Below, one piece after another: positions 5,592 to 43,387 of a stretch of DNA of 64,000 nucleotides; position 1 is the first letter of the stretch, and each line of letters starts with the position of its first letter. The position numbers and the translations under genes are program-made. Origin of the DNA: Kiritimatiellaceae bacterium (GTDB lineage Bacteria > Verrucomicrobiota > Kiritimatiellia > Kiritimatiellales > Tichowtungiaceae); contig JABFQY010000003.1 of the NCBI GenBank assembly GCA_013141415.1, positions 62,001-126,000 of the forward strand. The letters are read 5' to 3'. The notes below the pieces were generated by a model, which worked only from the letters and a program-made list of their open reading frames with translations, did not search any database and was not told where the DNA came from.

Positions 5592-5622
5592 GAATCATCA
5601 CAGCTCATAAAACAAGAAGACG

Positions 5623-5651
5623 AAAGGGCGCCCTGCGGGGCGCTCTTTTTT
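5623..5651 (+). terminator. Rho-independent terminator after rng
   Basis: A GC-rich hairpin with arms around AAAGGGCGCCC and GGGGCGCTCTTT and a four-base loop is followed directly by a T run. It begins 32 nt after the RNase G/E stop and probably ends the mre-rodA-rng transcript. Confidence 0.9.
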
Positions 5652-7246: not shown

Positions 7247-7247
7247 T

Positions 7248-9053: not shown

Positions 9054-9075
9054 TTTAGATTTTCTATTGGAGATT

Positions 9076-9750: not shown

Positions 9751-9881
9751 ATTTTCCCCTGAAAAAATGTGAGGAGGGAAGCTACCGAACCCATTCCAAA
9801 AAAGCAAGAAGAGCGGGCTTTATTTGCCGATGCCGGATTGCGCTTGTCCGACTCGATACTTTCTGTCCCAATAATGCCACT

Positions 9882-10775
9882 GTGAACGATCAACTGATTA
9901 AAGGATATTTCAAGGGGCTTGACGTTGCTTTTACCTATGCGGTGACAACGAATGCGGTGAACGGAATTGTACTTCGGCACAATTGCGATCCCGCAGCCGC
10001 CCACATTCTGGGTCGGGCGGTCACCGGCGCGCTGCTGAGCGCGGCAATTCTGCCCGAAGGTCAGCGCATCAATGTCTGCTGGAAATATCGCGGTGTTCTG
10101 CGCACGATTATTGTCGATGCCGGGCAGGACGGTACGGTACGCGGATTCATTGCACCGCCGCAGTTGGATCTGGAAGAAGACAACATGGACAAATTGTACG
10201 GCGATCTTGGCGATTTGCAGGTGGTCACATCGCAAACCGGAAAGATTCTGAATTCAGGCACTGCGCCGGTTCCACTGCACGATGTCGCCAAAGATCTCGC
10301 CTATTATCACTGCATCAGCGATCAAGTCGAAACCGGACTCAACGTGATGATCGGGTTTAACGCTGATCCGGAAAATCCCGTTCGGTTTTGTCAGGGCTGG
10401 ATGATTCAGGCGTTGCCGGAAACCGATGTAGAACGGTTCGACCGGCTTCGCCGCCGAATGGAGAGTCCGGCATTTCGCGAATTGCTTTCACGCGAGGCCG
10501 ATTGTGAAGTACTGGCCTGCCTGCTTACCGCTGAAGAAGCCGATTTTTCCGGTCTGCACAGGAATGTCGGCCCGGCCCCGAAGTTTATCTGTCCGTGCAA
10601 CCGCGATAAAATGGAGGCCGTTGTCCGCACCTTGCCAATTCCGGAACGGATGGAACTGGTACAGAAAAAAGAAGACGTAGTAATCCTCTGCCAGTTCTGC
10701 AACAAGCGCTATGAATTGACGATTGACGACTGCATCACCGCCTGGAATTTAAAATCGGACGCCGGCACACCATGA
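9882..10775 (+). CDS. hslO: Redox-regulated chaperone Hsp33
   Basis: A 297-residue protein with the HslO N-terminal domain and the C-terminal zinc switch: C237-P-C239 and C270-x2-C273. In the family these cysteines release zinc and form disulfides under oxidative stress, which turns on holdase activity in the cytoplasm. The start is a GTG at 9882 giving 'MNDQLIKGYF', and no strong ribosome site precedes it. The 131-nt gap to rpe is a divergent promoter region. The stop overlaps the next gene's ATG (ATGA). Confidence 0.94.
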   Translation: MNDQLIKGYFKGLDVAFTYAVTTNAVNGIVLRHNCDPAAAHILGRAVTGALLSAAILPEGQRINVCWKYRGVLRTIIVDAGQDGTVRGFIAPPQLDLEEDNMDKLYGDLGDLQVVTSQTGKILNSGTAPVPLHDVAKDLAYYHCISDQVETGLNVMIGFNADPENPVRFCQGWMIQALPETDVERFDRLRRRMESPAFRELLSREADCEVLACLLTAEEADFSGLHRNVGPAPKFICPCNRDKMEAVVRTLPIPERMELVQKKEDVVILCQFCNKRYELTIDDCITAWNLKSDAGTP

Positions 10776-24900: not shown

Positions 24901-27900
24901 TCACCTACCGCGCCGACCACACCCTCTTCACCAACACCGAAGTCGGCCAATCGCAGACCAACACCTTCAACCTCTTCAATATCGGAACTGGTGAACTGAC
25001 CTTGAGCAACGCCACCCTCAGCGGCGGCGGCGCGGCACAATTCAGCATCGTCAAACAACCGCGCGCCAGCGTCGGGGCGTTCGGCTCGACCGCGTTGCAG
25101 ATTAGCTACCACCCCGCCGCGGCCGGAACTCACACCGCAACACTCACCGTCACGAACAACGACGCCGATGAAGGCGTGATGACCTGGATCATCTCCGGCA
25201 CCGCCACCGCCACCGCTGCCCGCGATCTGCGCGTGAGCTATAACGGCAACATCCTCACGCCCGGCGACCTCACCCCTGCGCTCACCGACGGCACCGACTT
25301 TGGCCCCACCGCCATCGGCGCTTCGGCCAATCACAGTTTCGACCTCACCGCGCTCGTCGGCAACGTCCGCATCACCAGTGCCACGATCTCCGGCAGCACC
25401 AACTTCGCCATCCAGCAAGACCCCGCATGGCTCGTCACCGGCAGCCGGCCCACAACCCTCCGCATTTTTTACCTGCCGGTCGCCGTCGCCACAAACACCG
25501 CCACGCTCACCCTTGTCACCGATGACGTCTCCACTCCGACCATGACGTTCGCACTCTCCGGCGAAGGCCAGATATCGCCCGTGATGTCTGTCACCGGCAA
25601 CGGCGTCGCCATTGCCAGCGGCGATGCCGTCGCGCAGGCGGGAGACTTTACCGACTTCGGCAACATCGCCAAAGGCATCGCCACCTCGCGCAGCTTCGTC
25701 GTAAAAAACACCACGGCGAACAGCACCCTCGTCATCAGCGGCGTCACCTTCAGCGGCGCCAATGGCGGCGACCTCACGGCGACCGCGAACTTTCCACTCA
25801 CCCTCGCCTTCAATCAGACCGCGACCATCACGCTGAACTGGACTCCGCAGGGCCTCGGCACGCGCACCGCCACCGTCGGCATCAACGACAACAGCCTCAC
25901 CGACAATCCGTACACCTTTGCCCTCGCCGCCTTGGCGACCCCCTACGTCGTCAGCACGCCCGTTTTCCCCGGCGTGCCCGGCGGCTTGCTGCGTCCCAAT
26001 GCAGCCTTCGCCGACTTCGACAAGGACGGCGATCTCGACCTTGCGCTCATGGGCAATGACCCGAACAACATCTATTACAACACCGTCGGCGGCCCTGCCG
26101 TGCAGAGTCCCTCAGGCGTCTTCCGCAACGACGGCGCAAACTGGACCCGCGTCGCTGTTAGCACCCTGCTCAACCTCTCCGACGGCGACATTGCGTGGAG
26201 CGACATTGACAACGATGGCAAGCTTGACGTGCTCGCCGTCGGCCAGACCGACAACGCCAACAGCGCCATCTACAACACCACCAACGGCAATGCGAAGTTC
26301 CGCTCGTCCGCTTACGCCGCCATTGAGCATTACAACGGCAGCACCTTTACCCAGACCTATCCCGGCACCATCGGCGGCGACAGCGGCATCGTCGCTATCG
26401 GCGATTACGACAACGACGGCAAGGACGACTTCTTCACCAGCGGCTGGGCCGGCATCCAGTACAGCGTCGCCGAGTATGTGGCGCTCTACCACAATGACGG
26501 CGGCCGCACCTACACCATGCGCACCAACGGAATTCCCGTGGAGCAATATCAGGCGGGCGAGGAATGGTTTGAGAGTTCCCGTGCCGAATGGTTCGACATG
26601 GATCGTGATGGCGATCTCGACCTCGTCGTCGCCGGTCTTTACATCAACCCTGACAACTCCTTTAGCTATGCCGCCGTCGTCTGGCTCAACAACGGCAACG
26701 GCACCTTCACCAAAGGCGCGCAACTCACCCGTAGCAATGTTGCCAACAAAATCCAGATGGCCGTGGCCGACTTCGATGGCGATGGCGACTTCGACATTCT
26801 CATCAGCAACGACAACGCCACCACTCCCGGCAGCACCCTTTTCCTCAACGATGGCACCGGAACCTTCACCACCGGCTGGACCAGTAGTACATTGCGCTTT
26901 ACCTGCCGGCCGAAAGCCATTGACCTCGACAATGACGGCGACCTCGACGTGCTCGTGACGAAATACCTCGGCAGCGGAAGCGACCTCGGCATCCGCCTCC
27001 TTAACAACGGCACCGGCACGTTCACCGAAGACGCCGCCTTCACCTTCCCCGGCATCGGCGATATGGCCATTGCGCTCGGCGACATTGACAACAACGGCAC
27101 GATTGATTTCTTCACCTCGGGCCGCAGTGCTAACACCGGCGCGACCGCCACCGGCCTCTACCAAACGCCAGCGGCCAGCGGCACCAATGCTCCTCCCGAC
27201 TACCCCACCGCGCTCACAGCGAATGTCGTCGGCACCAACGTTACCTTCAACTGGACCGCGCCCACCGACGACACCACGCCCAGCGCCGCCTTGACCTATC
27301 GCCTCCGCATCGGCACCGCGCCCGGCACCGACAACATCGTCAGCGGCCTCGCCGACCTCGCCACCGGTCGTCGCTATGTCGTCGCCGCCGGCCAATTCCA
27401 GCAAACCTCCTGGCACTACACCCTGACCAACGGCAACTACTACGTCGCCGTGCAGGCCATTGACAACAACTTCGCTGGCGGCGCGTGGTCGCCGGAACGC
27501 ATCGTCACCGTCGGCAACATCACCCCGCCCGTCAACACCGCGCCCGTCGCGGTGAATGATGCAATCAGCGTCAGCAACAAACGCAACACATTGCTGGACG
27601 TTCTCACCAACGACACCGACGCCGAAGCCCAGGCGCTTTATCTCAACATCATCACACAGCCCGCGACCGGCGGAACCGTCACACGGCAGGGCGGCTTTAT
27701 TCGTTTCAATCCCACCCCTGACTTTAACGGCACGAGCACCTTCACCTACACTGTCACCGACGGCAACCTCACCTCCAGCCCCGCCACCGTCACCCTCACC
27801 GTCGGCGATGACTACCCGCCCGTCGCCAATGCCGGCCCGGATTTCACCACCGCGCCAAACACTCTTGTCACCCTCAACGGCACCGCCAGCGATGCGGATG

Positions 27901-30572: not shown

Positions 30573-31460
30573 TTAGTTACGTTCTCTGAAGATTACCTGC
30601 TTAATCGCTCTGATGTGTTCCGGTGTTGTGCCGCAGCATCCGCCGATGATGTTTGCGCCCGCCTCGATCAATCCGGAAACCTGCGCCGCCATCATTTCCG
30701 GAGTTTCCGGGAACGTATCGACACCGTTAATATTTCTGGGCAGACCGGCATTGGCGTGAACCAGAATCGGGGTTTCAGGTGCCGCGCCGCGCATCACTTT
30801 AACAATGTCGATCATGCGTTCGATCCCGTTGCCGCAATTAGTGCCGATAATATCCGCGCCGGCATCCAGCATGGCCTCTGCCGCCTGTTCGGGAGAAACA
30901 CCCATCATGGTGCGGTAATCACCGTTCACCGTCTGAGTAAATGTGAACGTGATGATTGCTTCACAGACGGAATTTTCTTTAACCGCCCTGACCGCGATTG
31001 CCGCCTCTTCGATGTCACTCATGGTTTCAATACAAATGGCATCCGCCCCGCCCTTTGCCAATGCAATCACCTGCTCCTTGAAGGAACTGTAGAGTTCGTC
31101 TTCGGTTACTTCTTCCATCACCAGCATCTTGCCCGTCGGGCCGATCGAAGCGATCACCCAATGGTCGGCACCGGCCGCTTCGCGCGAAAGCCGCGCCCCC
31201 GCCTCGTTAATTTCCACCGTGCGCTCTGCCAGACCGTAATGCGCCAGTTTAAAACGGCTTCCTCCGAATGTGTTGCTTTCCACCATATCTGCGCCGGAAT
31301 CGATGTAGCTCTGTGCGATGGCTCGCACATCATCGGGTCGCGTGATATTCCAAAGTTCGGGACACTCCCCCGGTTTGAGTCCTTTCTTCTGCAGGAACGT
31401 TCCCCACGCACCGTCTGATATCAGTACCTGTCCGTTTTTTACTGCATCAACAATTTTCAT
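30573..31460 (-). CDS. Homocysteine S-methyltransferase-family protein (BHMT/MetH N-domain-like)
   Basis: A 295-residue TIM-barrel methyltransferase. Zinc ligands are visible as the cysteine in 'GTNCGNG' and the Cys pair in 'IGGCCGTTPEHI'. 'LISDGAWGTFLQKKG' starts the domain. Family members move a methyl group to homocysteine, giving methionine, from betaine, S-methylmethionine or methylcorrinoid. The gene overlaps the RACo-like activator by 4 nt and is last in the methyl-transfer cluster, so it may accept methyl groups from the cluster's corrinoid protein. That role is inference. It is short, lacking any pterin- or cobalamin-binding domain of full MetH. Confidence 0.85.
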   Translation of the reverse strand: MKIVDAVKNGQVLISDGAWGTFLQKKGLKPGECPELWNITRPDDVRAIAQSYIDSGADMVESNTFGGSRFKLAHYGLAERTVEINEAGARLSREAAGADHWVIASIGPTGKMLVMEEVTEDELYSSFKEQVIALAKGGADAICIETMSDIEEAAIAVRAVKENSVCEAIITFTFTQTVNGDYRTMMGVSPEQAAEAMLDAGADIIGTNCGNGIERMIDIVKVMRGAAPETPILVHANAGLPRNINGVDTFPETPEMMAAQVSGLIEAGANIIGGCCGTTPEHIRAIKQVIFRERN

Positions 31461-33100
31461 AACTGCTCCATGGTTTTAGGGAATTCATCCGGATCAAGAT
31501 TCGGAAGTGCCAGCGCATCAATAAATCGGTTTTCAAATTCATTGGTTTCCGCCAGATGGCAGGCGCCGGGCAGTTTCGCAATCCGGTGCAGTTCTTCCCA
31601 GACGCCGCCCGCACCGAGTGCGGCATAGGCACCGGCCAGCGAGCCGTTGCCGATTACATCATATTTTTCGAGCGGAATTTCCGGAAGCAGGCCGATGGTT
31701 ATGGCATTTTGAATCCGCAGGTGCGCAGCAAAACCGCCCGCCAGCACCAGCCGCTCTACGTCGCTCATTCGGTGCCCGCTGCGCTCGATCAATGTTCGGA
31801 TTCCGGCATACACTGCGGCTTTGGCTTTCAAAATCTGTGAGACATCAAACTCCGTAATCAGAATATCCGGCGCGTCTGTAATCCGGCAGGCGTTGACGTT
31901 CATTCCATGGCAATCCAGTTGCACTAGGCGTCCGGCGGCGCGCAGACGGTCCAGATCGAACCGGCCCATACTGTTCAGCAATCCCGTTTGCAGCGCCGAT
32001 GCGATAAAATCAACCGCCGCGCTGCCGCATAGACCGGTCGCCGGGGTTCCGCCAATTGTTTCGACTTCAATCGAATCGTCCGGCTGGCAGACAATTTTTT
32101 CAATCACACCGGTATCGGCGCGACAGCCGTGCAGCAGACCCGCACCTTCGAAGGCCGGGCCGGCGGCGGTCGCTGTGGCTATCAGCTTTCCGTGATCGTT
32201 TAAAACAATTTCGCCGTTGGTGCCGATGTCCACGATCAGTTCCAGCCGGTCATTGGATAGTTCTGCGATGTAGAGATCGGAAACAATATCGCCGCCGACA
32301 TATCCGGCGATGGCGGGCACGGTGCGAACGCGGGCGTTCTGACAATTGGTCAGGCCGATTTCCGGTGCGGCGTGCTCGCTGAAAACTTTAGTCAACGGCT
32401 CAAATGGAATTGTACCGATACTCAGCGCCGAAAGACCGAGCGCCAAATGACTCATCACCGTGTTGCCGGAAAAAACGATTTTGGTCACCCGGTTTAATGA
32501 TTGGGAACTTTGGGCGGCCAGTTTTCCAAACATCGGAATAAGCGTCTCGCTGACGATCAGTCGCTGAAGTTTTTTCAGATTCGTATCTTCACAGCAAAGA
32601 GCGATGCGCGAGGCGATATTGTCGGCCAGTTCGATCTGCCGGTTATAGGCCGACTCGCGCGCCAGAATCCTGCCGGTTGAAAGTTCAACGAGAATCGCGG
32701 CAACCGTGGTCGTGCCGATGTCCACTGCAATGCCCAGTTCTCCGGCGCGGGTTTCTGAACCATGAAACAGGTTTTTTCGTGTGGCGTAAAAATCAGCGGA
32801 AGAGCACGCGCCGATTTTAAGCAGCGAGCGCTTGGGTATCTTGATTCGTGCCGAGTCACAGAGAACAGTTGTTTTGCAGGCCCGCGCTTCAAGAGTCTGC
32901 CCGTGTGCCACGGTTATCTCTTTTTCGCTAATGCGATAGCGCCCCGCCCCAAGCTCTACAAAGCATCCTTTGCAGGCTCCCTGCCCGCCGCACTGCATGT
33001 TGAGAGGAAACCCGGCTTCTGCCGCCAGTTCAGACAAAAAAACTCCGCTGCGGTTTTTCACCGCAGCACTGCATTCGTTTGAACTAAAGCGGACTGACAT
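31457..33100 (-). CDS. Corrinoid reductive activator (RACo-like, 2Fe-2S plus ASKHA ATPase)
   Basis: A 547-residue protein. An N-terminal plant-type ferredoxin domain carries C37-x5-C43-x2-C46 and a fourth Cys at about 75. A linker follows, then a large ASKHA-fold domain with 'VDIGTTTVAAILVEL', 'VDIGTNGEIVL' and 'VLAGGFAAHLRI'. In acetogens and methanogens such proteins use ATP to reduce inactive Co(II) corrinoid back to Co(I). Its place directly in a cluster with MtaB, MtaC and MtaA-like proteins supports that role. It is cytoplasmic. It starts 9 nt from the stop of the MtaA-like gene, so one transcript is likely. Confidence 0.92.
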   Translation of the reverse strand: MSVRFSSNECSAAVKNRSGVFLSELAAEAGFPLNMQCGGQGACKGCFVELGAGRYRISEKEITVAHGQTLEARACKTTVLCDSARIKIPKRSLLKIGACSSADFYATRKNLFHGSETRAGELGIAVDIGTTTVAAILVELSTGRILARESAYNRQIELADNIASRIALCCEDTNLKKLQRLIVSETLIPMFGKLAAQSSQSLNRVTKIVFSGNTVMSHLALGLSALSIGTIPFEPLTKVFSEHAAPEIGLTNCQNARVRTVPAIAGYVGGDIVSDLYIAELSNDRLELIVDIGTNGEIVLNDHGKLIATATAAGPAFEGAGLLHGCRADTGVIEKIVCQPDDSIEVETIGGTPATGLCGSAAVDFIASALQTGLLNSMGRFDLDRLRAAGRLVQLDCHGMNVNACRITDAPDILITEFDVSQILKAKAAVYAGIRTLIERSGHRMSDVERLVLAGGFAAHLRIQNAITIGLLPEIPLEKYDVIGNGSLAGAYAALGAGGVWEELHRIAKLPGACHLAETNEFENRFIDALALPNLDPDEFPKTMEQL

Positions 33101-33109
33101 GGCAACAGA

Positions 33110-34171
33110 TTATACACCGCATGACATCATAGCGTCCACCTTGCGCTTAATGATCTCTTCATGACCGGGCACACTCAGCACATCACATTCGGTGCCCATA
33201 ATGAAGGGATGCCCGGCTTTTTTCATATTCGTGATCAATTCGCGGGTCATGCGCTCAATGTCGGCAACGCTGACGGCTTCGTCGGAATAAAACTTCTTAG
33301 ACGGCAGGTTGCCATAGAGCACGATGTCTTTTGAAACCAGCGTGGCGTCTTCCCAGAGTGTGCGGGAACAGCCCAGGCTGAGCATGACCGGCTTCAGCCG
33401 GTTGAACGATTTGACCATGCCGTCGGTCAGTTCGCCGCAGTCGTGGAAGATTAAATCCACGCCCAACTCATCGAGCCGCGCTTTGATTTTTAGATTCGGC
33501 TCCATCACAAAACGCTCAAACACATCGGACCCTTCGGCCAGCTGGTTGGGAGAAAAAAAGACCAGATTGGCTGCTGGCTCACAGACGATAATGGCTTTTG
33601 CACCAGCCTTGGCCTGCTCCGTCAGGTAGCGGAGAATGATCTGCGTCGAAAGCTCCATCACACATTCCAGCATCGCCACATCATCTTCTTCTTCAGCGGT
33701 CAGGCCGGTGCCTGCCATGAAAACCGGCGTGATCGGGTCGCTCAGCATTTTGGTCATCAGCGAAAACGGACCAATTCCCATGCCCAGCGCAATGATTCCA
33801 TCCTGTTTTTCACGCTCCGCCACGTAGCGCACCGCGTCGCAGGTGGCCTTCATGCGCGGAATCATAAATGGCGCGGTGCAGACTTTTTCAACGGCGTCGC
33901 TTTCCGGCAGATTTTCAAAGTGAAATTTTTCACGCTCTTCGGCCGGTACGCCGAGAATCGCCAGGATCGCATCCTTTTCCAACGTCAGATCCATCAGCGG
34001 AATCGCCAGCGGACTTTTATAGTAGTGCGCGGCTTCAACCATCACGGCACCGAGCTGGTCACCATGATGAATAATGGTTCCATGATCTGCCTTCGTGTGA
34101 AGAACCAAATGGGTTCCGATCGGGAGTCGAAGGCCGCATTCTGCCAGATTGAGATAAAATTGTCTTTGCAT
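33110..34171 (-). CDS. MtaA-like methylcorrinoid methyltransferase (UroD family)
   Basis: A 353-residue UroD-superfamily protein with the MtaA-type zinc motif H243-D-C245 ... C268 ('IFHDCGELTD', 'LSLGCSRTL'). In methanogens MtaA moves the methyl from methyl-MtaC to coenzyme M. Bacteria without coenzyme M use relatives that methylate tetrahydrofolate, and the acceptor here is not decidable from sequence. The ATG at 34171 has AAAGGAA upstream. The frame up to 34270 was rejected. A 136-nt A+T-rich gap with the perfect palindrome AATAGCGCTATT (34270-34281) precedes it, so it may have its own promoter. Confidence 0.85.
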   Translation of the reverse strand: MQRQFYLNLAECGLRLPIGTHLVLHTKADHGTIIHHGDQLGAVMVEAAHYYKSPLAIPLMDLTLEKDAILAILGVPAEEREKFHFENLPESDAVEKVCTAPFMIPRMKATCDAVRYVAEREKQDGIIALGMGIGPFSLMTKMLSDPITPVFMAGTGLTAEEEDDVAMLECVMELSTQIILRYLTEQAKAGAKAIIVCEPAANLVFFSPNQLAEGSDVFERFVMEPNLKIKARLDELGVDLIFHDCGELTDGMVKSFNRLKPVMLSLGCSRTLWEDATLVSKDIVLYGNLPSKKFYSDEAVSVADIERMTRELITNMKKAGHPFIMGTECDVLSVPGHEEIIKRKVDAMMSCGV

Positions 34172-34307
34172 GGAGTTCCTTTCTGTATGATCGAAACCTA
34201 ATACAAAGCAGAAGTGACAGATAGGAAGTGCCGGTAATTTATATGACGATATTGCCGACAACTCACACAAATAGCGCTATTAACGGTTATTAATGTAACT
34301 ATTTTGC

Positions 34308-35222
34308 TTAACGAACCAGACAGGAATTAATCCGTCGGGAAAACCGGTCATCCGCGCCAATCCATTCGGCGGCGGAACGTGCAGTAGCGGCAGTCGGAAC
34401 CGCATTGACGTGTCCGCCGGCAATCTCCAGACGCTGCCAGCCCTGATCGGTCTGAAACACTCCTTTAAAGCGATCCAGCTGATGTGCTGTCGCTTCAAGC
34501 AGCACGAGAAGTTCAGCGAGCTGAAACGTGCCGTCTGCGCAAAATGTTCCGGCCAGCGGGATATTTGCATGATGATGAGAATGTTCCGGCGGAGAAATTA
34601 TATGTCCACGCAGTTCAAAAAGTTCCGGCGGCAGTTCGCCGTGTGACGTTTTAATCACTTTAAGTTTCGCCGGCTTCCACTGTTCCATACATTGGAAAAA
34701 TTGTTCGACCGCTTCCGGCGGCGCAAGGTCGCAGCGGTTGGCGACAATAATATCGGCGCAGTCAGCCAGCCGGTTCCAGTACGGAATCAGTTTCAGGCTG
34801 GCCGGTCGGGCCTTCGCCGGGTCAAACAGCACAATGACCGGCGCAACTTCGAAGCCACACTTCGGCGCGGCATCGTGAAGCATTTCCAGAAGCGGATCAA
34901 TCAGCGCGATCCCGCTCGGTTCGATGATAATCCGTTCAACCTCAGGCCGAGCGCAAAGAATTTTAAGCGCAGGCAGCAGTTGTGCGACCGATGTACAGCA
35001 GAGACAACCGCCAGGTACATTTTCCACGCTCAATTTGGCCGAACCGCCTGCTTCAGCAATGAAGGAAGCGTCGTAGCCGGTTTTACCGAAATCATTGACG
35101 ATGACCGCTGTGAATTGCGATGACTGCGCAACAAACCGTCGGATCGCTGTAGTTTTTCCGACTCCCAGCGATCCGGCAATCAAGTGACATGGAAGCGCCT
35201 GTGCTTTACGCGTCGATTCCAT
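34308..35222 (-). CDS. CobW/COG0523-family GTPase (metal chaperone-like)
   Basis: A 304-residue G3E GTPase with Walker A 'GSLGVGKTT' near residue 18, the metal-binding 'GGCLCC' (C-x-C-C) motif near residue 72, 'NRCDLAP' as G4, and a His-rich stretch ('PPEHSHHHAN') before the C-terminal CobW domain. Such proteins deliver Zn or Co to client enzymes. Overlapping mtaB by 17 nt and placed before the MtaA-like zinc enzyme, it may load metal into the cluster's methyltransferases. The client is inference. Confidence 0.87.
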   Translation of the reverse strand: MESTRKAQALPCHLIAGSLGVGKTTAIRRFVAQSSQFTAVIVNDFGKTGYDASFIAEAGGSAKLSVENVPGGCLCCTSVAQLLPALKILCARPEVERIIIEPSGIALIDPLLEMLHDAAPKCGFEVAPVIVLFDPAKARPASLKLIPYWNRLADCADIIVANRCDLAPPEAVEQFFQCMEQWKPAKLKVIKTSHGELPPELFELRGHIISPPEHSHHHANIPLAGTFCADGTFQLAELLVLLEATAHQLDRFKGVFQTDQGWQRLEIAGGHVNAVPTAATARSAAEWIGADDRFSRRINSCLVR

Positions 35223-36588
35223 ATTCGATCAGACTGCATTTTGTTGCATCAACCAGCGGAGCCATCTTCGCGATCATGGCCTCTTCGGTTTCCGGAATAT
35301 CATCTTCAATCGCCATTTCCATCATATCGAGCCAGCTCTCTTCGCGTTTATCCAGACGATATGATTTGTCATCGGCTCCCTTGCGGAGTTCTTCGAGCGC
35401 GGCCTGCACGGCGATGCGGGTTCGGTCGTAGGCCGTATTGCCCTGTACAATCTTTTTGGAGATGCGCAGTACAACTTCCGGATGAAGGACATAAGCCTGC
35501 GGATCAAGCGGCGCATCGGATTCAACCAGCCAGTCGCGCAGACGCAGTGCGTCTTCAGGTGAGCGGCGCGATGCAACATTCATCAAGCGGCAGTCGTAGG
35601 CGAGCTGTTCGGCGGAAACCATCGGAGCTTTGCCGCTGAGCAGCTGAACGTTCTGTACCGACTCGTTCGACCAGCAGTCGCAAACGGCGGCGGCAATGTT
35701 GCCGATTGGACTCAAATGAGCGCAAGCCGCCGATTTACCTTCGAGTGCAATCGGAGTTCCGGTGATGGCTTTGATATAGACACCTTCATAGGCGCAGTCT
35801 TTGCACGGACCGACCGCTCCCTGCTCGACTGCAATCAACGTACGCGGAACGGTGGCGACGCGTACCACGGCGGCAAAAATCTTCGGAATCATTTTTTTGT
35901 CCGCCAGCACCATGGCGGTATTTCCGAACCCGCAGGCGCTGTCGCCCGCCGGAATGACGCCGTTCTTTTTGCAGGCGGCCACCATGTGTTTCCACAAAAA
36001 TTCCATATCGCGGCAACCCAGCACGCCCAGCGCGAAAACCACGCCGGGAAGATCGGCATTAATCAATGCTTCGTCATTCAGTTCTTTTCCGCCGGTCGAT
36101 TCGATGGAGAGGAAGTCGGCTCCGGCTTCGCCGGCTTTATCGAATACTTCGAGCATGTGTTCCCAATGAATTCCACTGCGCATGATTGGCGGACGTGAAA
36201 ATTCCCGAATGTCGTTCGGCGTAAACCGGAGAGCGGTTTTTATTCCATACTTTTCCTGCGCCGCGATCAGCTTATCGGCCAGCAGGCGATTAATCTCCAA
36301 TCCCCATGCCGGATTGAGAGTCATGTCCGGAAGCGTTTCAAATTCGATCTGCAACTGCGGAACTTCCAGTTCAACGGAACGATGAATCACATCGTCGACC
36401 ATTTCCGTGTAATGAGCAACAACCTGCGGCCAGGTATCATTATTAATGTTCATGGCAGGCAGTGTGAAATTGACCTCCGGAAATACAATTCCGGTCCCGA
36501 TTTCTACCCCTCGCTTCGTTTTGACCGGCTTTGGGCAGCGCCCGTAAACAAAACTATTTAAGGAATCTATGGCTATGGCTTTACTCAT
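35206..36588 (-). CDS. mtaB: Methanol:corrinoid methyltransferase MtaB
   Basis: A 460-residue protein matching MtaB in length and pattern ('GIVFPEVNFTLP', 'IESTGGKE', 'IPAGDSACGFGNTAM', 'GPCKDCAYEG', 'IKAITGTPIALEGK'). The zinc ligands of the archaeal enzyme (a Glu and two Cys) correspond to E163, C219 and most likely C265. It activates methanol and moves its methyl to the cobalt of MtaC. AGGTGA precedes the ATG at 36588. It lies 58 nt downstream of mtaC, separated by a hairpin. Its substrate is assigned by homology, and another methylated substrate is possible. Confidence 0.9.
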   Translation of the reverse strand: MSKAIAIDSLNSFVYGRCPKPVKTKRGVEIGTGIVFPEVNFTLPAMNINNDTWPQVVAHYTEMVDDVIHRSVELEVPQLQIEFETLPDMTLNPAWGLEINRLLADKLIAAQEKYGIKTALRFTPNDIREFSRPPIMRSGIHWEHMLEVFDKAGEAGADFLSIESTGGKELNDEALINADLPGVVFALGVLGCRDMEFLWKHMVAACKKNGVIPAGDSACGFGNTAMVLADKKMIPKIFAAVVRVATVPRTLIAVEQGAVGPCKDCAYEGVYIKAITGTPIALEGKSAACAHLSPIGNIAAAVCDCWSNESVQNVQLLSGKAPMVSAEQLAYDCRLMNVASRRSPEDALRLRDWLVESDAPLDPQAYVLHPEVVLRISKKIVQGNTAYDRTRIAVQAALEELRKGADDKSYRLDKREESWLDMMEMAIEDDIPETEEAMIAKMAPLVDATKCSLIEYGIDA

Positions 36589-36604
36589 AATTTCACCTCA
36601 TATA

Positions 36605-36633
36605 AAAGCACCCCGTGATAGCGGGGTGCTTAA
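36605..36633 (-). promoter_or_regulatory. Hairpin between mtaC and mtaB
   Basis: AAGCACCCCG and CGGGGTGCTT form a perfect stem around a six-base loop. Read in the direction of transcription it is followed by only TTTTAT, then the mtaB ribosome site. It could be a weak terminator, or a 3' stabiliser giving more MtaC than MtaB. Confidence 0.6.
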
Positions 36634-36646
36634 CATTAATTTTTAA

Positions 36647-37273
36647 TTACTTGGCCAGTGCTTTTTCCACCGAAGCAACAGCCTGATTCGCATCGCTTGA
36701 GTAGCCGTCCGCACCGATTTCATCGGCATATTCCTGAGTTACCGGAGCGCCGCCGATGAGAATTTTCACTTTCGAACCTTTGGCTTTAAAGTGAGAGACG
36801 ACTTCCTTCATGTAGGGCATCGTCGTTGTCAGCAGGGCGCTGAGCATGATGACCTGAACGCCATTGCCAACCGCCTCTTCATACTTGGCCACATCGCAAT
36901 CCACGCCAATATCCATCACTTCATATCCGGCACCCTTCACCATCATGGCTACCAGATTTTTACCAATGTCATGCAGGTCGCCTTTGACTGTACCGATAGC
37001 AACCCGGCCTAGCGGTTCATGTCCGCTCTTCGAGAGAAGCGGATCAACAATATCCAGACCGGCCTGCATGGCGCGGGCGGCAATCAGCATTTCCGGAACA
37101 TAAACTTCATTACGACTGAACCGTGCGCCGATTTCCCGCATCGCCGGAATCATTGAATCCATCAGAATCGAACCGACATTCGCACCGGCGTTTACTTCAG
37201 CCTGAACCAGTACCGCTACGTCCTTGCGTTTGCCCTTCATAATCGAATTAAACAGTTCTTCATTTCTGGCCAT
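36647..37273 (-). CDS. mtaC: Methanol-type corrinoid protein MtaC
   Basis: A 208-residue two-domain corrinoid carrier. A helical cap domain (residues ~1-85) is followed by a Rossmann B12-binding domain with D99-L-H101-D-I-G104, where H101 would be the lower cobalt ligand, plus 'MLSALLTTTM' and 'ILIGGAPVT'. It accepts a methyl group from MtaB on cobalt and passes it to an MtaA-type enzyme. The ATG at 37273 has a strong AAAGGAGA site. The frame up to 37444 would cross the divergent promoter region and was rejected. First gene of the cluster, read away from the AraC-type regulator. Confidence 0.93.
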   Translation of the reverse strand: MARNEELFNSIMKGKRKDVAVLVQAEVNAGANVGSILMDSMIPAMREIGARFSRNEVYVPEMLIAARAMQAGLDIVDPLLSKSGHEPLGRVAIGTVKGDLHDIGKNLVAMMVKGAGYEVMDIGVDCDVAKYEEAVGNGVQVIMLSALLTTTMPYMKEVVSHFKAKGSKVKILIGGAPVTQEYADEIGADGYSSDANQAVASVEKALAK

Positions 37274-37295
37274 GGGTCTCTCCTTTGGTTTTAAG

Positions 37296-37322
37296 AATGC
37301 CTCCAGAGTAACTGAAATGCCT
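37296..37322 (+). promoter_or_regulatory. Direct repeat AATGCCT x2, likely AraC-type operator
   Basis: AATGCCT occurs at 37296-37302 and again at 37316-37322, a 20-bp spacing of about two helical turns, between mtaC and the divergent AraC-type gene. AraC-family dimers commonly bind such tandem half-sites. A looser CTCCAG/CTGGAG pair (37301-37306 and 37364-37369) lies in the same gap. Confidence 0.45.
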
Positions 37323-37425
37323 GAATAAAATAGGGTGATCACAAAAAATACATAATGATATTGCTGGAGCGGTTTTGTTTTTTTATAAAGACGGCCTAGA
37401 CAGCTGTAATTTGAGGATTTTTTAT

Positions 37426-38655
37426 ATGCCGATCTTGTCCGCAACCACTTTGAAACGCATCCGGAAAAGCTACCACAGCTCTTACCCGCTCGATGTTCTG
37501 GAAGTATCCCCTTCGGGAGTGTGCGATGACTGTAAGGATGCGATCACCAATCTGCCCGCACTGGTCAATGCGCGCAGCTATGGACTTGCAGAAGCTGTCC
37601 GCTGGGGTGAGCCATATATTTTCTTCCTGCTCCCCAACGTCATCAGCTGGATTATTCCTGTCGTCAGAGAAACCGAAATCCTCGGCGGACTGCTTGGCGG
37701 AGCAGTCATGATCGAAGCTGACCCGCATGACCAGCTGGAAACAGTCAACCACCTGACCACCTCAGGCTGCAACCGCAAAGCTGCCGAACAATATGTTAAA
37801 AATCTGCCGGTCTGGACTGACCGGGAACAACCGCAAAAAGCCGCCGGGTTTCTTTTCGCACTCACCTGCTGTGAGCTGGACTGGGACATGCTTCTGCTCA
37901 GTGAAAACCGGAAAAAAGCCTTAAGACAGCGGCAGATTGCCGAAGAAATCCACCGCCGCAAACTGGGCCCTAAAGATCGCACGTTGATCGACGAAGAGCG
38001 CACTTTGCTGTCACTAATGAAGGCCGGCGATCAGAAAGGAGCGCGGAGGGAACTGAATAAAACGCTCGGCGCCCTCTTTTCGCACACCGCCGACATCCGG
38101 CTGATCAAAGCTCATGTCATCGAAATGATGGGCTATCTGGTGCGCAGCGCGCTCGAAGACAGCCCGCACATGAGCTCGTTGATCGAGAAAAACCATGTCT
38201 GGATGACCGAGATCATTGACGCACCGGATTTTGAAAAACTGTCCAATGTCGTTGCGGATGCACTCGATGACTTTATGCGTAACATTTATCTGCAAGGTCA
38301 CAGCAAAGCGAATGAAACCGTCGCGCGAATTCTCAACTACCTGGGTGATAACTTTCACGAAACGGTCACGCTTGAGAATCTCTCAAAAGAAATCGGTCTC
38401 AGCACATTCCGCGTTGCCCATCTGGTCAAGGAAGTGACCGGAAAAACGGTGCTGCAACATGTTCACCAGTTGCGCGTTCAGGAAGCGCAGCGGCTTCTCG
38501 AGCAGAGCGACCTGAACTGTACCGATATCGCCTATGAAACCGGGTTCGGCGACCAGAGCTACTTCATCAAGCAGTTCCGTAAATGGATGGGCATAACACC
38601 CGCCCGCTACCGCCGACTTTACCTAACCGGAAAATCCGGCGAACAAAATTCGTGA
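37426..38655 (+). CDS. AraC-family regulator with PocR-like sensing domain
   Basis: A 409-residue regulator. The N-terminal ~180 residues contain 'PSGVCDDCKDA', 'RSYGLAEAVRWGEPYIFFL' and two further cysteines ('LTCCELDW'), reminiscent of a PocR ligand domain. A helical linker follows, then AraC-type tandem HTH at about 312-405 ('VTLENLSKEIGLSTFRVAHL', 'CTDIAYETGFGDQSYFIKQF'). The ATG at 37426 with TTGAGG upstream is preferred to the longer frame at 37375. Divergent from mtaC, it is the likely activator of the mta cluster. The cysteines might sense a corrinoid, metal or redox signal. Confidence 0.85.
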   Translation: MPILSATTLKRIRKSYHSSYPLDVLEVSPSGVCDDCKDAITNLPALVNARSYGLAEAVRWGEPYIFFLLPNVISWIIPVVRETEILGGLLGGAVMIEADPHDQLETVNHLTTSGCNRKAAEQYVKNLPVWTDREQPQKAAGFLFALTCCELDWDMLLLSENRKKALRQRQIAEEIHRRKLGPKDRTLIDEERTLLSLMKAGDQKGARRELNKTLGALFSHTADIRLIKAHVIEMMGYLVRSALEDSPHMSSLIEKNHVWMTEIIDAPDFEKLSNVVADALDDFMRNIYLQGHSKANETVARILNYLGDNFHETVTLENLSKEIGLSTFRVAHLVKEVTGKTVLQHVHQLRVQEAQRLLEQSDLNCTDIAYETGFGDQSYFIKQFRKWMGITPARYRRLYLTGKSGEQNS

Positions 38656-38659: not shown

Positions 38660-38782
38660 CAGGCTTGACCGCAAATGCACTTCCGCCTACCTTGCGCCCC
38701 TGATGCAGGAAGCGCAGGGAAAGTGCCGTGAGAACCGGCCGCTGTCGCGCAACCGTTAAAGCCGGAACACCGCCTTTCTGCC
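38660..38782 (+). promoter_or_regulatory. Cobalamin riboswitch
   Basis: The aptamer core shows the conserved order: AGGGAAAGTGCCGTGAGAAC (38716-38735), GCTGTCGCGCAACCGTTAA (near 38741-38759) and the B12 box GCCGGAACACCGCC (38761-38774). It ends just before a helix that covers the btuB ribosome site. It would bind adenosyl- or methylcobalamin and lower expression of the btu genes when B12 is plentiful. The 5' edge of the aptamer is approximate. Confidence 0.9.
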
Positions 38783-38819
38783 GTAACCTGAACCCGCCTT
38801 CGCGTAAGAGGCAGAAATG
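38775..38819 (+). promoter_or_regulatory. Ribosome-site-sequestering helix of the riboswitch
   Basis: TTTCTGCC (38775-38782), immediately after the B12 box, is perfectly complementary to GGCAGAAA (38810-38817). The second arm covers the end of the GAGG ribosome site and the A of the btuB ATG. This is the layout of a translational off-switch. Confidence 0.75.
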
Positions 38820-40808
38820 GGAATGATGAAAAAACGGATACTTACCGCCGCGTTGAGCGGCGCACTATTCACCGGCACCTTTGCCGAAACCACCAATACC
38901 GTCACAGACGCAGAACGTATTGTCATCACAGCAACCCGTAGCGCCAGCGACGTACGCAATGTGCCAGGTAATCCGTCGGTCGTCACAGCGCAGGATATTG
39001 CCGACGGGCATTACACTTCCGTTCCCGAAGCCTTAGAGAAAAAGGCCGGAATCTTTTTCCGTAACTATGCCGACAATCCGTCGCAGGCCGCTGTCGATAT
39101 TCGCGGATTCGGCGGGGACAATCCGCACGGCAAAGTACTGGTGCTTGTCAACGGGCGCAAACTGAATCGTCCGGACATGGCGGTTATTAACTGGGCTCAA
39201 ATTCCAATGCAGGCGGTTGAGCGCATCGAAGTGGTTCGCGGTCCAAACTCAGTTCTTTATGGCGACCACGCCGTCGGCGGTGTCATTAATATTATCACCC
39301 GCGACGGCGCAGATATTCCGGAAACTTCGCTTCAAGCGTCGGCAGGAAGTTACGGAGCGTTTGATCAAAATGTGGTCACCTCCGGAAAACTGGACGGACT
39401 CGGATATGTTGCAACCGCCGGACACCAGTCCGGCGACGGCTACCGTAACCGCTCAGCCTACGACACATCCTCCGGCAGTCTACGGCTGAGCGGCGCCATC
39501 AACGAACAGGTCTCGGCTTACGCCGAAGGTTCCGTCGTAAAAGAGCGGCATGAACTGCCGGGCGCACTTTCGTTGGCACAAGTTCAGCAAAACCGGCGGC
39601 AGGCCGCGAATTTGGCCGATGAAGCCGACGAAACCTACTACACTTTCAACACCGGCGTTAAAGTCGTGCCGACAGATGAGTTGATTTTTGATTTAGACGG
39701 CGGCATGTCCAGAAAAGACCTGCAGGCAGATATGCCTTCCTATTGGCCGGCTTCCTACTACGATTACAAAATCAACAGCTATACCCTCTCGCCAAAAGTC
39801 ACTCTGCTGACGCCGGTTGCCAACATGGATAATGAGTTTATCCTCGGCAGTGATCTTGCACGGGAAACACTTGTCACAAAAAAATATAACGATCTTAGCC
39901 GTACAGTGCTGGCCACCGATACGAAGGTCACCAAAGATCTGATCGGCGGATATATTGCCGACACCCTCAGCTTAACCGACAAGCTTCTTTTGAGCGGCGG
40001 CGCACGTCTCGAACAGAACAAAGTCAATGCCCACCACGAAAACGGCGCTGGTGTTACGCAATACGATGACTCAATAACCCACACCAAAAAAGCCTGGCAG
40101 ACGGCGCTTAATTGGATGCCGACCGATACGTTGAAACTGTTTACTGGTGTCAAAAGCACCTACCGCTATCCCTTTATCGACGAACAGGCGATTTATTCAG
40201 GCTGGGGCGATGCCTTCAATAAAGACCTCAGACCGGAAACCGGCATCAACTATGAAACTGGCGTCGAAGTAACACCGGTCTCGAACGTTGTGTTGCAGGC
40301 AACCGCATTTCAAACTGATATGAAGGACGAAATCGCCTGGGGCGCAGGCAAGAATGAAAACCTCGACAAAACCACCCACCGTGGCGTCGAGCTGCACGCC
40401 GGTTATAAGAACGAAGCCTTTGCCATCGACGGATATTACACCTGGCTTCAGTCCGAATTCACCGCCGGCGTGAACAACGGAAACGAAATTCCGTGGGTTC
40501 CGCAGAACAAACTCGACGTTAACCTCGCGCTGTTCCTGACCGGCGCACTGACCCTCAACACGCACATGAGCTATGTCAGCAGCATGTATCCATCCGGCGA
40601 TAATTCTAACTCAGCCGGAACGCTGTCGGACTACACCATCTTCGACTCACTGCTTGAATACAAACTGCCGATCAAAAAATTCGAGACCAAAGTTTTCGCC
40701 GGAGTGGACAATATCTTCGCAACCAAATACAACTTCCTTGCATATAGCTGGGGCTATTATCCTGCGCCGGAGCGAACCTATAAAGCCGGGCTTAATGTGA
40801 AATTCTAA
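38817..40808 (+). CDS. btuB: TonB-dependent cobalamin receptor (BtuB-like)
   Basis: A 663-residue outer-membrane receptor. A signal peptide (ends near 'GTFAE') is followed by a TonB-box-like 'IVITATR', a plug domain ('VPEALEKKAGIFFRNYADN', 'VDIRGFGG', 'VLVNGRKLNRPDM', 'VERIEVVRGPNSVLYG') and a 22-strand-type barrel ending in 'AGLNVKF' with terminal Phe. B12 specificity is inferred from the riboswitch upstream and the btuF, btuD and btuC genes downstream. The first ATG (38817) is used, and ATGs at 38823 and 38826 are alternatives. The stop overlaps the btuF start. Confidence 0.92.
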   Translation: MGMMKKRILTAALSGALFTGTFAETTNTVTDAERIVITATRSASDVRNVPGNPSVVTAQDIADGHYTSVPEALEKKAGIFFRNYADNPSQAAVDIRGFGGDNPHGKVLVLVNGRKLNRPDMAVINWAQIPMQAVERIEVVRGPNSVLYGDHAVGGVINIITRDGADIPETSLQASAGSYGAFDQNVVTSGKLDGLGYVATAGHQSGDGYRNRSAYDTSSGSLRLSGAINEQVSAYAEGSVVKERHELPGALSLAQVQQNRRQAANLADEADETYYTFNTGVKVVPTDELIFDLDGGMSRKDLQADMPSYWPASYYDYKINSYTLSPKVTLLTPVANMDNEFILGSDLARETLVTKKYNDLSRTVLATDTKVTKDLIGGYIADTLSLTDKLLLSGGARLEQNKVNAHHENGAGVTQYDDSITHTKKAWQTALNWMPTDTLKLFTGVKSTYRYPFIDEQAIYSGWGDAFNKDLRPETGINYETGVEVTPVSNVVLQATAFQTDMKDEIAWGAGKNENLDKTTHRGVELHAGYKNEAFAIDGYYTWLQSEFTAGVNNGNEIPWVPQNKLDVNLALFLTGALTLNTHMSYVSSMYPSGDNSNSAGTLSDYTIFDSLLEYKLPIKKFETKVFAGVDNIFATKYNFLAYSWGYYPAPERTYKAGLNVKF

Positions 40809-41617
40809 TGGCCATGAAATGCATAGCGTTGCTCGCTGCCGCCCTGCTCCTTGCGGGGTGCGGAGAGCGGCGTGTACAAAGTTCTCATCAGGGGTTGCGC
40901 ATTGTGGCGATGGCTCCTAACACCACCGAGATTCTCTACGCGCTCGGTTTGAGCAACTCGGTGGTCGGTGTCAGTCACTACGCGGTTTACCCGCCGGAAG
41001 CCAAACAGAAACCGTCCGTCGGCGGAACGTACGATCCGAACTTTGAAATGATCGTTGCTCTGCAACCCGATCTGGTGATCGGACTTGAAACACAAAAGGA
41101 TATCGCCGCGCAGCTCAAAGCGCTCGACATCCCGTTTTTCGGCGTGGCGCACGAACACATCAGCGAAATCATGCAGTCCATCCTCACCATCGGCAAAGCC
41201 TGCGGCGCGGAAGCCGAAGCGCAGCAGCTATTCCAATCTCTGGAAGCAACTGCGTTGCGGCTTACGGTTTCTTCTGGCGACCGGAAACCCCGGGTTCTCG
41301 TTTGCGTCGGACACGATGAAAGCCTCAGCCGGATGTATGTCGCCGGTAAGGGAACTTTCTACGACGAGCTGATCGAACGCGCCGGCGGCATCAACGCCTG
41401 CGGAGAATCCGCCGCCAAATATCCGGAGATTTCACCGGAAGGTTTGGCGACACTGCGCCCCGATGTCGTCATCGATATTCTTCCTAACCCCGGACATTTC
41501 ACCGCCAGTGACTGGAAGCCTTATCGCGCCGTCGTGATTACCAACGATTACGCCTCGATTCCGGGGCCGCGTTTTGTTCTGCTCCTTCAGGATTTTATCA
41601 AAGCCATTCATGAATAA
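40808..41617 (+). CDS. btuF: Cobalamin-binding periplasmic lipoprotein BtuF
   Basis: A 269-residue substrate-binding protein of the BtuF/FecB helical-backbone type. The lipoprotein signal has lipobox LAGC with lipidated C18. 'RIVAMAPNTTEILYALG' and 'YDPNFEMIVALQPDLVIG' match the family. It would be anchored in the membrane, capture corrinoid in the periplasm and deliver it to BtuCD. The start overlaps the btuB stop by one base. The end overlaps btuD. Confidence 0.9.
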   Translation: MAMKCIALLAAALLLAGCGERRVQSSHQGLRIVAMAPNTTEILYALGLSNSVVGVSHYAVYPPEAKQKPSVGGTYDPNFEMIVALQPDLVIGLETQKDIAAQLKALDIPFFGVAHEHISEIMQSILTIGKACGAEAEAQQLFQSLEATALRLTVSSGDRKPRVLVCVGHDESLSRMYVAGKGTFYDELIERAGGINACGESAAKYPEISPEGLATLRPDVVIDILPNPGHFTASDWKPYRAVVITNDYASIPGPRFVLLLQDFIKAIHE

Positions 41618-42443
41618 CGCCATCCAGATTGAAAACCTTGCGCTGGAACTGAATGGCGCGCCGATTCTGAAAGCCGTTTCGTTCGGCATCGGCGCAGGCG
41701 AATACGTTTCAGTCATCGGCCCGAACGGCGCGGGCAAAACCACACTGCTGCGCTGTCTGCTCGGCATGTATTCATACAAAGGCTCGGCAAAAGTCGGCGG
41801 AATCGAGTGCCGCAGTTATGACAGCCGTGCGCTGGCCCGGCAGGTCAGCTATGTGCCGCAAACGCACGATCTGGAATTTCCGCTGACGGTTTACGACTTC
41901 GTCATGATGGGCCGCTACCCATACCTTTCCGCACTTTCTCCGGCACGGAAGCCGGACGAAGACGCGGTCGAACGGGCACTGGATATTACCGGCACGGCGC
42001 AGTTCAGAAGCCGGACGCTCCGCACACTCTCCGGCGGCGAACGACAAAAAGTGTACATCGCCGCCGCGCTGGCGCAGGAAACGCCGGTCATGCTGCTCGA
42101 CGAACCGGCCACCTTTCTCGACTGGCGGCATCAATCCGAAGTGATGACGCTGCTCAAAAAAATAAACGTTGAGTGCGGCGCCACCATTCTGGCCGTCAAC
42201 CACGACCTCAATAGCGCCGCGCACTGGAGTGACCGCATTGTCGCTCTGAAAGACGGTCGGACGCTTTTCACCGGTACGCCGCAGGAACTGATTCAGCCCG
42301 CGCCGCTTGAAACGCTTTTCGAAACCGCCTTCGTCCGCAAAGAAACTCTTGCTCCTGCTTCGGAATCTATCGTAGACGCGACGCCCCCGTCGCGTCCTCA
42401 AGAACGGCAAAAACGCGACGAGGGCGTCGCGTCTACGTTATGA
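41610..42443 (+). CDS. btuD: Cobalamin ABC transporter ATPase BtuD, with repeat-derived C-terminus
   Basis: A 277-residue ABC ATPase with Walker A 'GPNGAGKTT', Q-loop 'SYVPQTHDLEF', signature 'LSGGERQKVYIAAAL', Walker B 'VMLLDEPATFLD' and the H-loop 'VNHDL'. It powers corrinoid import with BtuC. The ATG at 41610 lies inside the end of btuF. The last ~23 residues (from about 'IVDATPPSRPQ') are encoded entirely by a double palindrome at 42371-42437, so the natural C-terminus has been replaced or extended by a repeat that stays in frame and ends 2 nt before the btuC ATG. Confidence 0.93.
   Translation: MNNAIQIENLALELNGAPILKAVSFGIGAGEYVSVIGPNGAGKTTLLRCLLGMYSYKGSAKVGGIECRSYDSRALARQVSYVPQTHDLEFPLTVYDFVMMGRYPYLSALSPARKPDEDAVERALDITGTAQFRSRTLRTLSGGERQKVYIAAALAQETPVMLLDEPATFLDWRHQSEVMTLLKKINVECGATILAVNHDLNSAAHWSDRIVALKDGRTLFTGTPQELIQPAPLETLFETAFVRKETLAPASESIVDATPPSRPQERQKRDEGVASTL
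42371..42437. repeat. REPIN-like double palindrome inside the 3' end of btuD
   Basis: Two 25-nt arms (42371-42395 and 42413-42437) are inverted copies of each other, 24 of 25 matching. Each arm itself holds a small hairpin (GCGACG/CGTCGC). An inverted pair of REP units with a short spacer is the form called REPIN. It lies in the coding frame of btuD and directly before the btuC start. Confidence 0.85.
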
Positions 42444-43387
42444 AAATAAAATTTACTATTTTGACTCTGCTGGCATTGGTGTCACTCCTGGTGTTTCCAC
42501 TGATTGGAAGCACTGATGTTCTGCACGATCCAATGGGCCGCGAAATTCTGATGAAGCTTCGAATTCCGCGCGTCCTGACAGCGTTTCTGGCCGGTATCGC
42601 GCTGGCATCCAGCGGTATGATTTTTCAGGCGCTCTTCCGTAATCCGCTGGCGACACCGGATACGCTCGGCGTTTCCGGCGGCGCGGCACTCGGTGCCACC
42701 GTCTGGATGCGTTTCGGCGCGCCGCTGCTTTTTGCCGGCGTTGCCGGAGCTTCTATCGCCGGATTTTTTGGCGCGCTGGGAACGGTACTGCTGGTTTACG
42801 GACTGGCGCGGATCAAAAGCGGATTTTCCTCCGCTACGCTATTGCTGGCCGGTGTGGCGGTAAATCTTTTCTTCTCCAGCCTGATTCTGCTGATGCAATA
42901 TTTCAGCGACCCCGGCGAAACTTTCCGCATGATCCGCTGGCTGATGGGCGGCTTTTCTGTCGTCGGCTTCACCACGCCAATCAATCTGGCAGTCTTTACT
43001 GCCATCGGACTGATCATTGCCGGTTTGTTAACCCGCGAGATGAATCTGCTGCTGATCGGCGAGGAACTGGCCGGTGCGCGCGGCGTAAATGTGGATCGCA
43101 CCAAAAAACTGCTGTTCTTCTCCGCGTCGCTGATGACCGGTGCCGCCGTTGCTTTTTGCGGGCCGATCGCCTTTGTCGGACTGATGGTTCCGCACATCGG
43201 ACGCCAGCTGATCGGCTCCGACCACCGGAAACTTTTTCCGGCGGTCATTCTGCTCGGCGGCGCGTTTCTGGTTATCTGCGACGGACTGGCGCGCACCCTG
43301 CTCGCTCCGGTCGAAATGCCCGCCGGACTCATCACCTCGCTGCTCGGCGGCCCGTTCTTCCTCTGGCTGCTCCTGCGGAAGGCATAA
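42440..43387 (+). CDS. btuC: Cobalamin ABC transporter permease BtuC
   Basis: A 315-residue FecCD-family permease with eight to ten hydrophobic segments and family motifs 'LRIPRVLTAFLAGIALASSG', 'FQALFRNPLATPDTLGVSGG' and 'FCGPIAFVGLMVPHIGR'. It forms the membrane channel of the corrinoid importer with BtuD and BtuF. The ATG overlaps the btuD stop, and the region where its ribosome site should be is filled by the palindrome. Translation may therefore depend on coupling to btuD. Confidence 0.93.
   Translation: MKIKFTILTLLALVSLLVFPLIGSTDVLHDPMGREILMKLRIPRVLTAFLAGIALASSGMIFQALFRNPLATPDTLGVSGGAALGATVWMRFGAPLLFAGVAGASIAGFFGALGTVLLVYGLARIKSGFSSATLLLAGVAVNLFFSSLILLMQYFSDPGETFRMIRWLMGGFSVVGFTTPINLAVFTAIGLIIAGLLTREMNLLLIGEELAGARGVNVDRTKKLLFFSASLMTGAAVAFCGPIAFVGLMVPHIGRQLIGSDHRKLFPAVILLGGAFLVICDGLARTLLAPVEMPAGLITSLLGGPFFLWLLLRKA

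Follow-up and report, generated by a model that had tools for sequence, protein, structure and literature searches.

In acetogens, methyl groups from methanol-type corrinoid systems are passed on by a second methyltransferase, an MtaA of approximately 30 kDa acting on tetrahydrofolate (THF), and for Moorella thermoacetica and A. woodii, transcription as well as previous work connects these systems with methanol (PMC13391211). For other lineages, a missing second methyltransferase has been noted (PMC11264602). Homocysteine is the acceptor in P. inhibens and R. pomeroyi, where a PF02574 protein, a PF02310 corrinoid protein and a RamA activator make up a split methionine synthase (PMC12478193), and core methionine synthases that bypass folate, including MesB, are also known (PMC7857596). 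Here, we analyzed a 64,000-nucleotide stretch of contig JABFQY010000003.1 (positions 62,001 to 126,000; hereafter the window) from a Kiritimatiellaceae bacterium (assembly GCA_013141415.1), which holds a six-gene operon encoding the methanol:corrinoid methyltransferase MtaB, its corrinoid protein MtaC and a homocysteine S-methyltransferase (Hcy). We read this operon as a methanol-fed, folate-free split methionine synthase; for the route taken as a whole, the balance tips only slightly in favor of this reading.

The operon and its probable methanol enzyme

The operon lies on the minus strand at 30573-37273, with the genes transcribed in the order mtaC, mtaB, cobW, uroD, activator and Hcy. MtaB and CobW genes overlap by 17 bases, the activator and Hcy genes by 4 bases, and the largest intergenic gap within the operon is 136 bases. 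In profile searches, all six products and that of the divergent regulator gene matched the expected families far above chance, which bears out the gene content proposed in a sequence-only reading of this DNA. The first gene (36647..37273) encodes an MtaC-type protein of 208 amino acids (aa) (PF02310, 5.3e-24; PF02607, 3.9e-16) carrying the motif GDLHDIG, that is, the D-x-H-x-x-G noted earlier. Its start is most likely the ATG at 37273, with GGAGAG upstream. The most likely starts were also revised for UroD (ATG 34171) and the regulator (ATG 37426), and, with the new MtaC and regulator starts, the two divergent genes do not overlap.

MtaB follows (35206..36588, 460 aa; PF12176, 6.6e-164). It scored 546.5 bits against PF12176 (cut-off 25), and 390.7 bits against the NCBIfam equivalog model NF040651, whose cut-off is 720; hence, it is a member of the family rather than an equivalog of the enzymes behind that model. 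The zinc ligands E163, C219 and C265 were read as previously claimed, align with those of M. barkeri MtaB (2i2x) and are invariant across eight aligned MtaBs with identities down to 38%, as are dozens of other positions. In a tree of 88 MtaBs, the window protein fell in a 23-row clade (support 99) drawn from Kiritimatiellota, Sumerlaeota, Planctomycetota, Ignavibacteriota, Acidobacteriota and Armatimonadota. Adjoining it is a separate 36-row clade, mainly Firmicutes, which includes Acetobacterium and Moorella; the window MtaB is approximately 52-56% identical to acetogen MtaB, and that of M. barkeri was placed far out.

Since MtaB keeps the zinc ligands and its clade adjoins that of the acetogens, methanol is the likely substrate of the clade, and we judge it very probable that the window protein is a methanol enzyme. 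The phylogeny suggested as a check thus placed MtaB next to the acetogen methanol clade with its ligands unaltered. The earlier proposal of a methanol or methoxy-compound pathway in a PVC-like bacterium held for methanol, through PF12176, the ligands and the tree; nothing points to methoxy compounds. That a divergent MtaB draws on a small methyl donor other than methanol (a methoxy or methylthio compound) gains some ground from the separation of the 23-row clade, approximately 55% identical to the acetogen proteins and composed entirely of uncharacterised members, but the ligands and dozens of further positions stay invariant out to 38% identity, and we know of no characterised PF12176 member with a substrate other than methanol. 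We regard this alternative as highly improbable.

The genome has no second MtaB, and within the phylum Verrucomicrobiota the gene is rare, being present in 11 of the 289 genomes sampled and in none of the four further genomes of the same genus. At least 567 stretches among species genomes encode relatives, none was found on plasmids, and a search of the literature collection used here for methanol methyltransferases in Kiritimatiellae returned nothing relevant.

Outlets for the methyl group

The genome of the window comprises 2.22 Mb in 7 contigs and is 95.5% complete. PF00809 matches only two of its proteins: FolP (286 aa), whose gene neighbors a diadenylate-cyclase-like one, and MetH (1124 aa), in which homocysteine, pterin, B12 and activation parts could be read; MetF is also present. 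A genome-wide search revealed no pterin methyltransferase beyond FolP and MetH, no MtvA/AcsE-type protein, no stand-alone pterin module and no ACS, CODH, formate-THF ligase (FTHFS) or MttB. The single PF03063 match is a 562-aa frame resembling the non-CODH ones of its relatives, with a counterpart in each same-genus relative, versus approximately 650 aa for the CODH frames in ACS clusters. Likewise, no extra pterin protein was detected in this genome or in the PVC genomes G112, G158, G119, G010 and G159, and weak extra matches were seen in G115 (which has MtaB), G012 and G136. Across MtaB loci, a pterin-family gene lies by MtaB in 12 of 31 from Firmicutes and in 0 of 56 others (Fisher P 8e-7, not corrected for kinship).

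With ACS, CODH, FTHFS and any further pterin methyltransferase missing, nothing recognisable encodes the acetogen route to THF, and no recognised methyl outlet remains except a homocysteine or thiol acceptor. The sequence-only reading had left the acceptor as THF or homocysteine and had proposed searching for MtvA/AcsE and the Wood-Ljungdahl genes; the outcome disfavors the THF side and strengthens its remark that methyl groups might go directly to methionine. Methanol catabolism as in acetogens, with an unrecognised THF methyltransferase and the methyl group being oxidised or assimilated, would be compatible with the presence of MetF and MetH and with operons of a sister family, which combine the same MtaC-RACo pair with FolD, a MetF-pterin fusion, FTHFS and a formate channel. 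We consider it very unlikely, however, given the genes missing here.

The last gene of the operon, Hcy (30573..31460, 295 aa), carries the zinc cysteines GGCC. Its earlier description as a BHMT-like protein was right as to the homocysteine methyltransferase family (PF02574, 9e-75), but less apt as to BHMT: its nearest solved relatives are the homocysteine modules of MetH (1.7e-49, vs. 1.3e-20 for BHMT).

A corresponding locus was found in a same-genus genome (G003), with identities of 92% for MtaC, 82% for the activator, 79% for Hcy, 80% for the PocR-AraC regulator, 73% for the TonB-dependent receptor and 79% for BtuF. It has no MtaB, CobW or UroD between MtaC and the activator; MtaC, activator and Hcy are contiguous, so that this trio stays together although the methanol enzyme is absent. 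Further downstream, Hcy is followed by a MesB-like protein, two CooC-like ATPases, CODH, an ACS-AcsD fusion and AcsC. In place of the window's MtaB, CobW and UroD, the interval between MtaC and activator (L140:12792-12990) carries a perfect palindrome with a T run after it on the coding strand (GGCACCCCGGAATTCCGGGGTGCC), which looks like a terminator.

G311, G289 and G306 likewise have Hcy genes close to MtaC-RACo, and across the order this MtaC is found in 18 of 43 genomes at 73-92% identity. In the sister family, its usual company is the activator, DUF1638, a UroD-thioredoxin protein, CobW, FTHFS, FolD, a formate channel and the MetF-pterin fusion; at times, these loci hold an Hcy gene (L207, L212), and in G309 MtaB-CobW (L211). 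MtaC belongs to a clade of 22 corrinoid proteins from the Planctomycetes-Verrucomicrobia-Chlamydiae (PVC) group, in which MtaB-linked and MtaB-free members stand together. We picture a shared corrinoid carrier whose donor and acceptor modules can be exchanged; in the window, the donor is MtaB and the recognisable acceptor is Hcy.

A PF02574 gene was also found no more than approximately 4 kb from MtaB at six other loci: L013 (PVC), L033, L045, L050 and L060 (Armatimonadota) and L038 (Acidobacteriota). By chance, approximately 0.6 such loci would be expected (P ~3e-5 with the loci taken as independent, 2e-2 with only the three lineages counted). The Hcy proteins of the six group in a single clade (support 100/99), which suggests a dedicated MtaB partner. 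We expected the window Hcy to group with these six, and the tree rejected this.

The placement of Hcy is one of several points that weigh against a methanol-to-methionine route. Firstly, the window Hcy stands outside the MtaB-linked clade, in a PVC-wide clade mostly from genomes without MtaB; its nearest members come from genomes that lack MtaB or lie away from it, some beside CODH/ACS, so that the link to methanol comes through the operon and not through co-evolution. Secondly, the genome has a complete MetH and a MetF, so growth does not require another methionine synthase. Moreover, the Phaeobacter/Ruegeria systems require the pterin subunit MtgD (PMC12478193), and the genome of the window has no stand-alone counterpart; about 4.5% of that genome may be missing. 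Finally, the role of the UroD-family protein is the main uncertainty of the methionine reading: five orthologues (46-68% identity) occur in the MtaB loci L019, L022, L023, L077 and L099, mostly directly beside MtaB, and none of these loci shows an Hcy within the stretch seen, so that UroD has a serious claim to being the second methyltransferase.

The UroD-family protein (33110..34171, 353 aa; PF01208, 2.6e-17) had been described as MtaA-like, with an H-x-C...C zinc site. The site, here H-D-C...C, was sustained: H245-x-C247...C331 (alignment A2 numbering) is unchanged across six orthologues, each from an MtaB locus. The MtaA label was not, as the protein scored 19.8 bits of the 400 required by NF040654, 29.7 of 235 for TIGR01463 and 46.1 of 600 for a further MtaA/MtbA cut-off. 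Its AlphaFold model (pLDDT 89.5) returned the UroD/MtaA/MetE fold with no preference among them; as a single sequence, it had no match to solved structures at 1e-3, and a marginal one when run as a profile. Of these features, the zinc motif alone speaks against a decarboxylase role. UroD may transfer methyl groups to a thiol as the second methyltransferase, or it may be a further donor enzyme.

It could be UroD, not Hcy, that acts as a functional MtaA, moving the methyl group of MtaC to a thiol (homocysteine or an unknown carrier), with Hcy as a neighbor in a role of its own, e.g., making methionine from another methyl donor. The orthologues in MtaB loci with their invariant motif argue for this, and the modeled fold aligns with that of MtaA (4ay7/4ay8) and, less closely, with that of MetE. 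The model, however, resembles MtaA no better than it does UroD decarboxylases, the profile scores are far under the MtaA/MtbA cut-offs, and G003 retains MtaC-RACo-Hcy without this UroD. Coenzyme M synthesis is not known from bacteria of this kind. Overall, we hold it to be unlikely that UroD is the true outlet in place of Hcy, and the case for the window's Hcy comes from the operon structure, its retention with MtaC and the lack of other outlets.

In the methionine route, zinc-bearing MtaB would bind methanol and methylate Co(I) on MtaC, and Hcy, holding homocysteine on its zinc, would take the methyl group from methyl-MtaC to give methionine. MtaC that had drifted to Co(II) would be re-reduced by the RACo-type activator, while CobW would supply metal, the PocR-AraC regulator would probably turn the operon on in response to a small alcohol and a riboswitch-controlled transporter would import cobamide. 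UroD would either provide a second outlet, to another thiol or, as MetE-core enzymes do, to homocysteine, or serve as a second donor enzyme. As a complete MetH is present, this would be an additional route to methionine; alongside MetH and MetF, it would save the cell the reducing power and C1 units that methyl-THF formation costs when methanol is available.

More broadly, we tentatively propose, with slightly less than even confidence, that many non-acetogenic bacteria with MtaBC use methanol as a methyl donor for methionine rather than as fuel, hence the absence of a neighboring THF methyltransferase. The outlet would be the dedicated MtaB-linked PF02574 clade (in Armatimonadota, Acidobacteriota and a Kiritimatiellia-class relative) or, in the window, its PVC-wide relative. 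If true, this would constitute a folate-free methanol:homocysteine methyltransferase pathway. MtaB genes occur in many environmental genomes and are read as methylotrophic acetogenesis or energy metabolism; if some of them feed methionine synthesis, those readings are wrong and methanol, e.g., from pectin, is a biosynthetic methyl source. Such a route also offers a possible answer to the missing second methyltransferase of other lineages.

Accessory genes and related clusters

The activator (31457..33100, 547 aa) agrees with the earlier 2Fe-2S reactivator in its RACo middle and C-terminal regions (Raco_middle, 6.9e-44; RACo_C_ter, 1.3e-70), and is of the RACo/AcsV type. Its 2Fe-2S domain was borderline by profile (Fer2, 18.9 bits vs. 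a cut-off of 21), but is supported by the cysteine pattern. The CobW-family GTPase, also claimed before (34308..35222; PF02492, 1.7e-28), probably delivers metal (Zn or Co); across the MtaB loci, a CobW gene was found no more than 6 kb from MtaB in 15 of 31 from Firmicutes and in 8 of 56 from other groups. DUF1638, which has been tied to corrinoid re-activation (PMC12478193), recurs in MtaB clusters of several phyla (L024:10354-11109, and also L015, L016, L038, L043, L045 and L077), and is absent from the window's operon.

The divergent gene on the plus strand (37426..38655) encodes the expected AraC-type regulator, with a PocR sensor (HTH_18, 2.4e-23; PocR, 2.2e-07); its orthologue occupies the same place in G003. 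The feature reaches past the region first noted: an AdoCbl-II cobalamin riboswitch (38707..38779, plus strand; RF01689, 38.1 bits vs. a gathering threshold of 36.5) precedes a TonB-dependent receptor (38817..40808, plus strand; PF00593, PF07715), a candidate for cobalamin uptake in view of that riboswitch, and BtuF-, BtuD- and BtuC-like ABC uptake genes (40808..43387, plus strand; PF01497, FecCD, ABC_tran), which score below the curated Btu cut-offs. Promoter and terminator scans gave site numbers no higher than in shuffled sequences. A recent horizontal gain of MtaB-CobW-UroD was considered and rejected, as GC content overall and at third codon positions (GC3) showed no contrast with the neighbors. 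Converging with the operon, and stopping 30 bases from its end, is the gene of a 2875-aa, secreted-looking repeat protein (21915-30542), in which PKD-like and FG-GAP-like stretches were discerned by eye.

Several related clusters were observed in relatives. The CODH/ACS cluster of G003 (L140, G003:C71:12000-31000, at 1-10586; also L169) comprises CODH, an ACS-AcsD fusion, AcsC, two CooC-like proteins and an AcsV-like protein, with Hcy and the MesB-like protein upstream; no FTHFS or AcsE-type protein was found in that genome. The order Hcy - MesB-like - CooC - CooC - CODH recurs in L143, L145, L146, L152 and, judging by gene sizes, L156, and resembles the acetyl-CoA-to-methionine route proposed for Dehalococcoides. 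The MesB-like protein (L140:8604-9671) has no match in Pfam or NCBIfam. Its residues H230, C232, D251 and C326 (spacing 2, 19, 75) nearly equal the spacing of the D. mccartyi MesB zinc ligands, reported at 214, 216, 235 and 311 (PMC7857596).

In the sister family, fusions of 800-880 aa (L206:13082-15541; relatives in L203, L208, L210, L212 and L215) join MetF, DUF5981 (the MetF C-terminal domain) and a pterin-binding domain, and share an operon with FTHFS, FolD, the formate channel and MtaC-RACo; each could connect methyl-corrinoid to methylene-THF within a single protein. A UroD protein with a C-terminal thioredoxin-like stretch (L206:5545-6906, L169:5040-6398), most often found together with a CobW GTPase close to MtaC-RACo, is 80-90% identical across two families, a conservation that clearly suggests strong selection.

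Comparison with known systems

Like the window, the MtaABC systems of methanogens (Methanosarcina) pair a zinc MtaB with MtaC and include a UroD-family protein that bears H-x-C...C. However, their MtaB is only distantly alike, and the window UroD is far below MtaA scores; no sign of coenzyme M use emerged, no search having been aimed at it. The acetogen systems (Acetobacterium, Moorella, Eubacterium) have homologous MtaB and MtaC, often with a PocR-AraC-like regulator and CobW nearby, but they rely on a THF-acting MtaA and the Wood-Ljungdahl pathway, neither of which is present in the genome of the window. Type 1 mlp clusters also combine UroD-family proteins, a corrinoid protein and an activator with no THF methyltransferase, but they need at least two Mlps and are not MtaB-based, whereas the window operon has one UroD and MtaB (PMC10418091).

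MesB and the other core methionine synthases achieve the kind of folate-free transfer from a corrinoid protein to homocysteine that is proposed here (PMC7857596), although a MesB-like protein occurs in G003 and not in the window's operon. The Phaeobacter/Ruegeria split synthase and MtgBCDE likewise have stand-alone PF02574 and PF02310 proteins with a RamA-type activator, and in them the methyl-donor enzyme shares the corrinoid protein, as we propose for the window; their donor is MtgB (glycine betaine) or methyl-THF, whereas that of the window is MtaB (PMC12478193). Of the features that define a split methionine synthase, the operon has the stand-alone homocysteine module (PF02574, GGCC) and the corrinoid module with its activator. 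Because a stand-alone pterin module is missing, it would work like the three-module type without being a member of it, and we infer by analogy that it is a pterin-less cousin of the Phaeobacter/Ruegeria systems.

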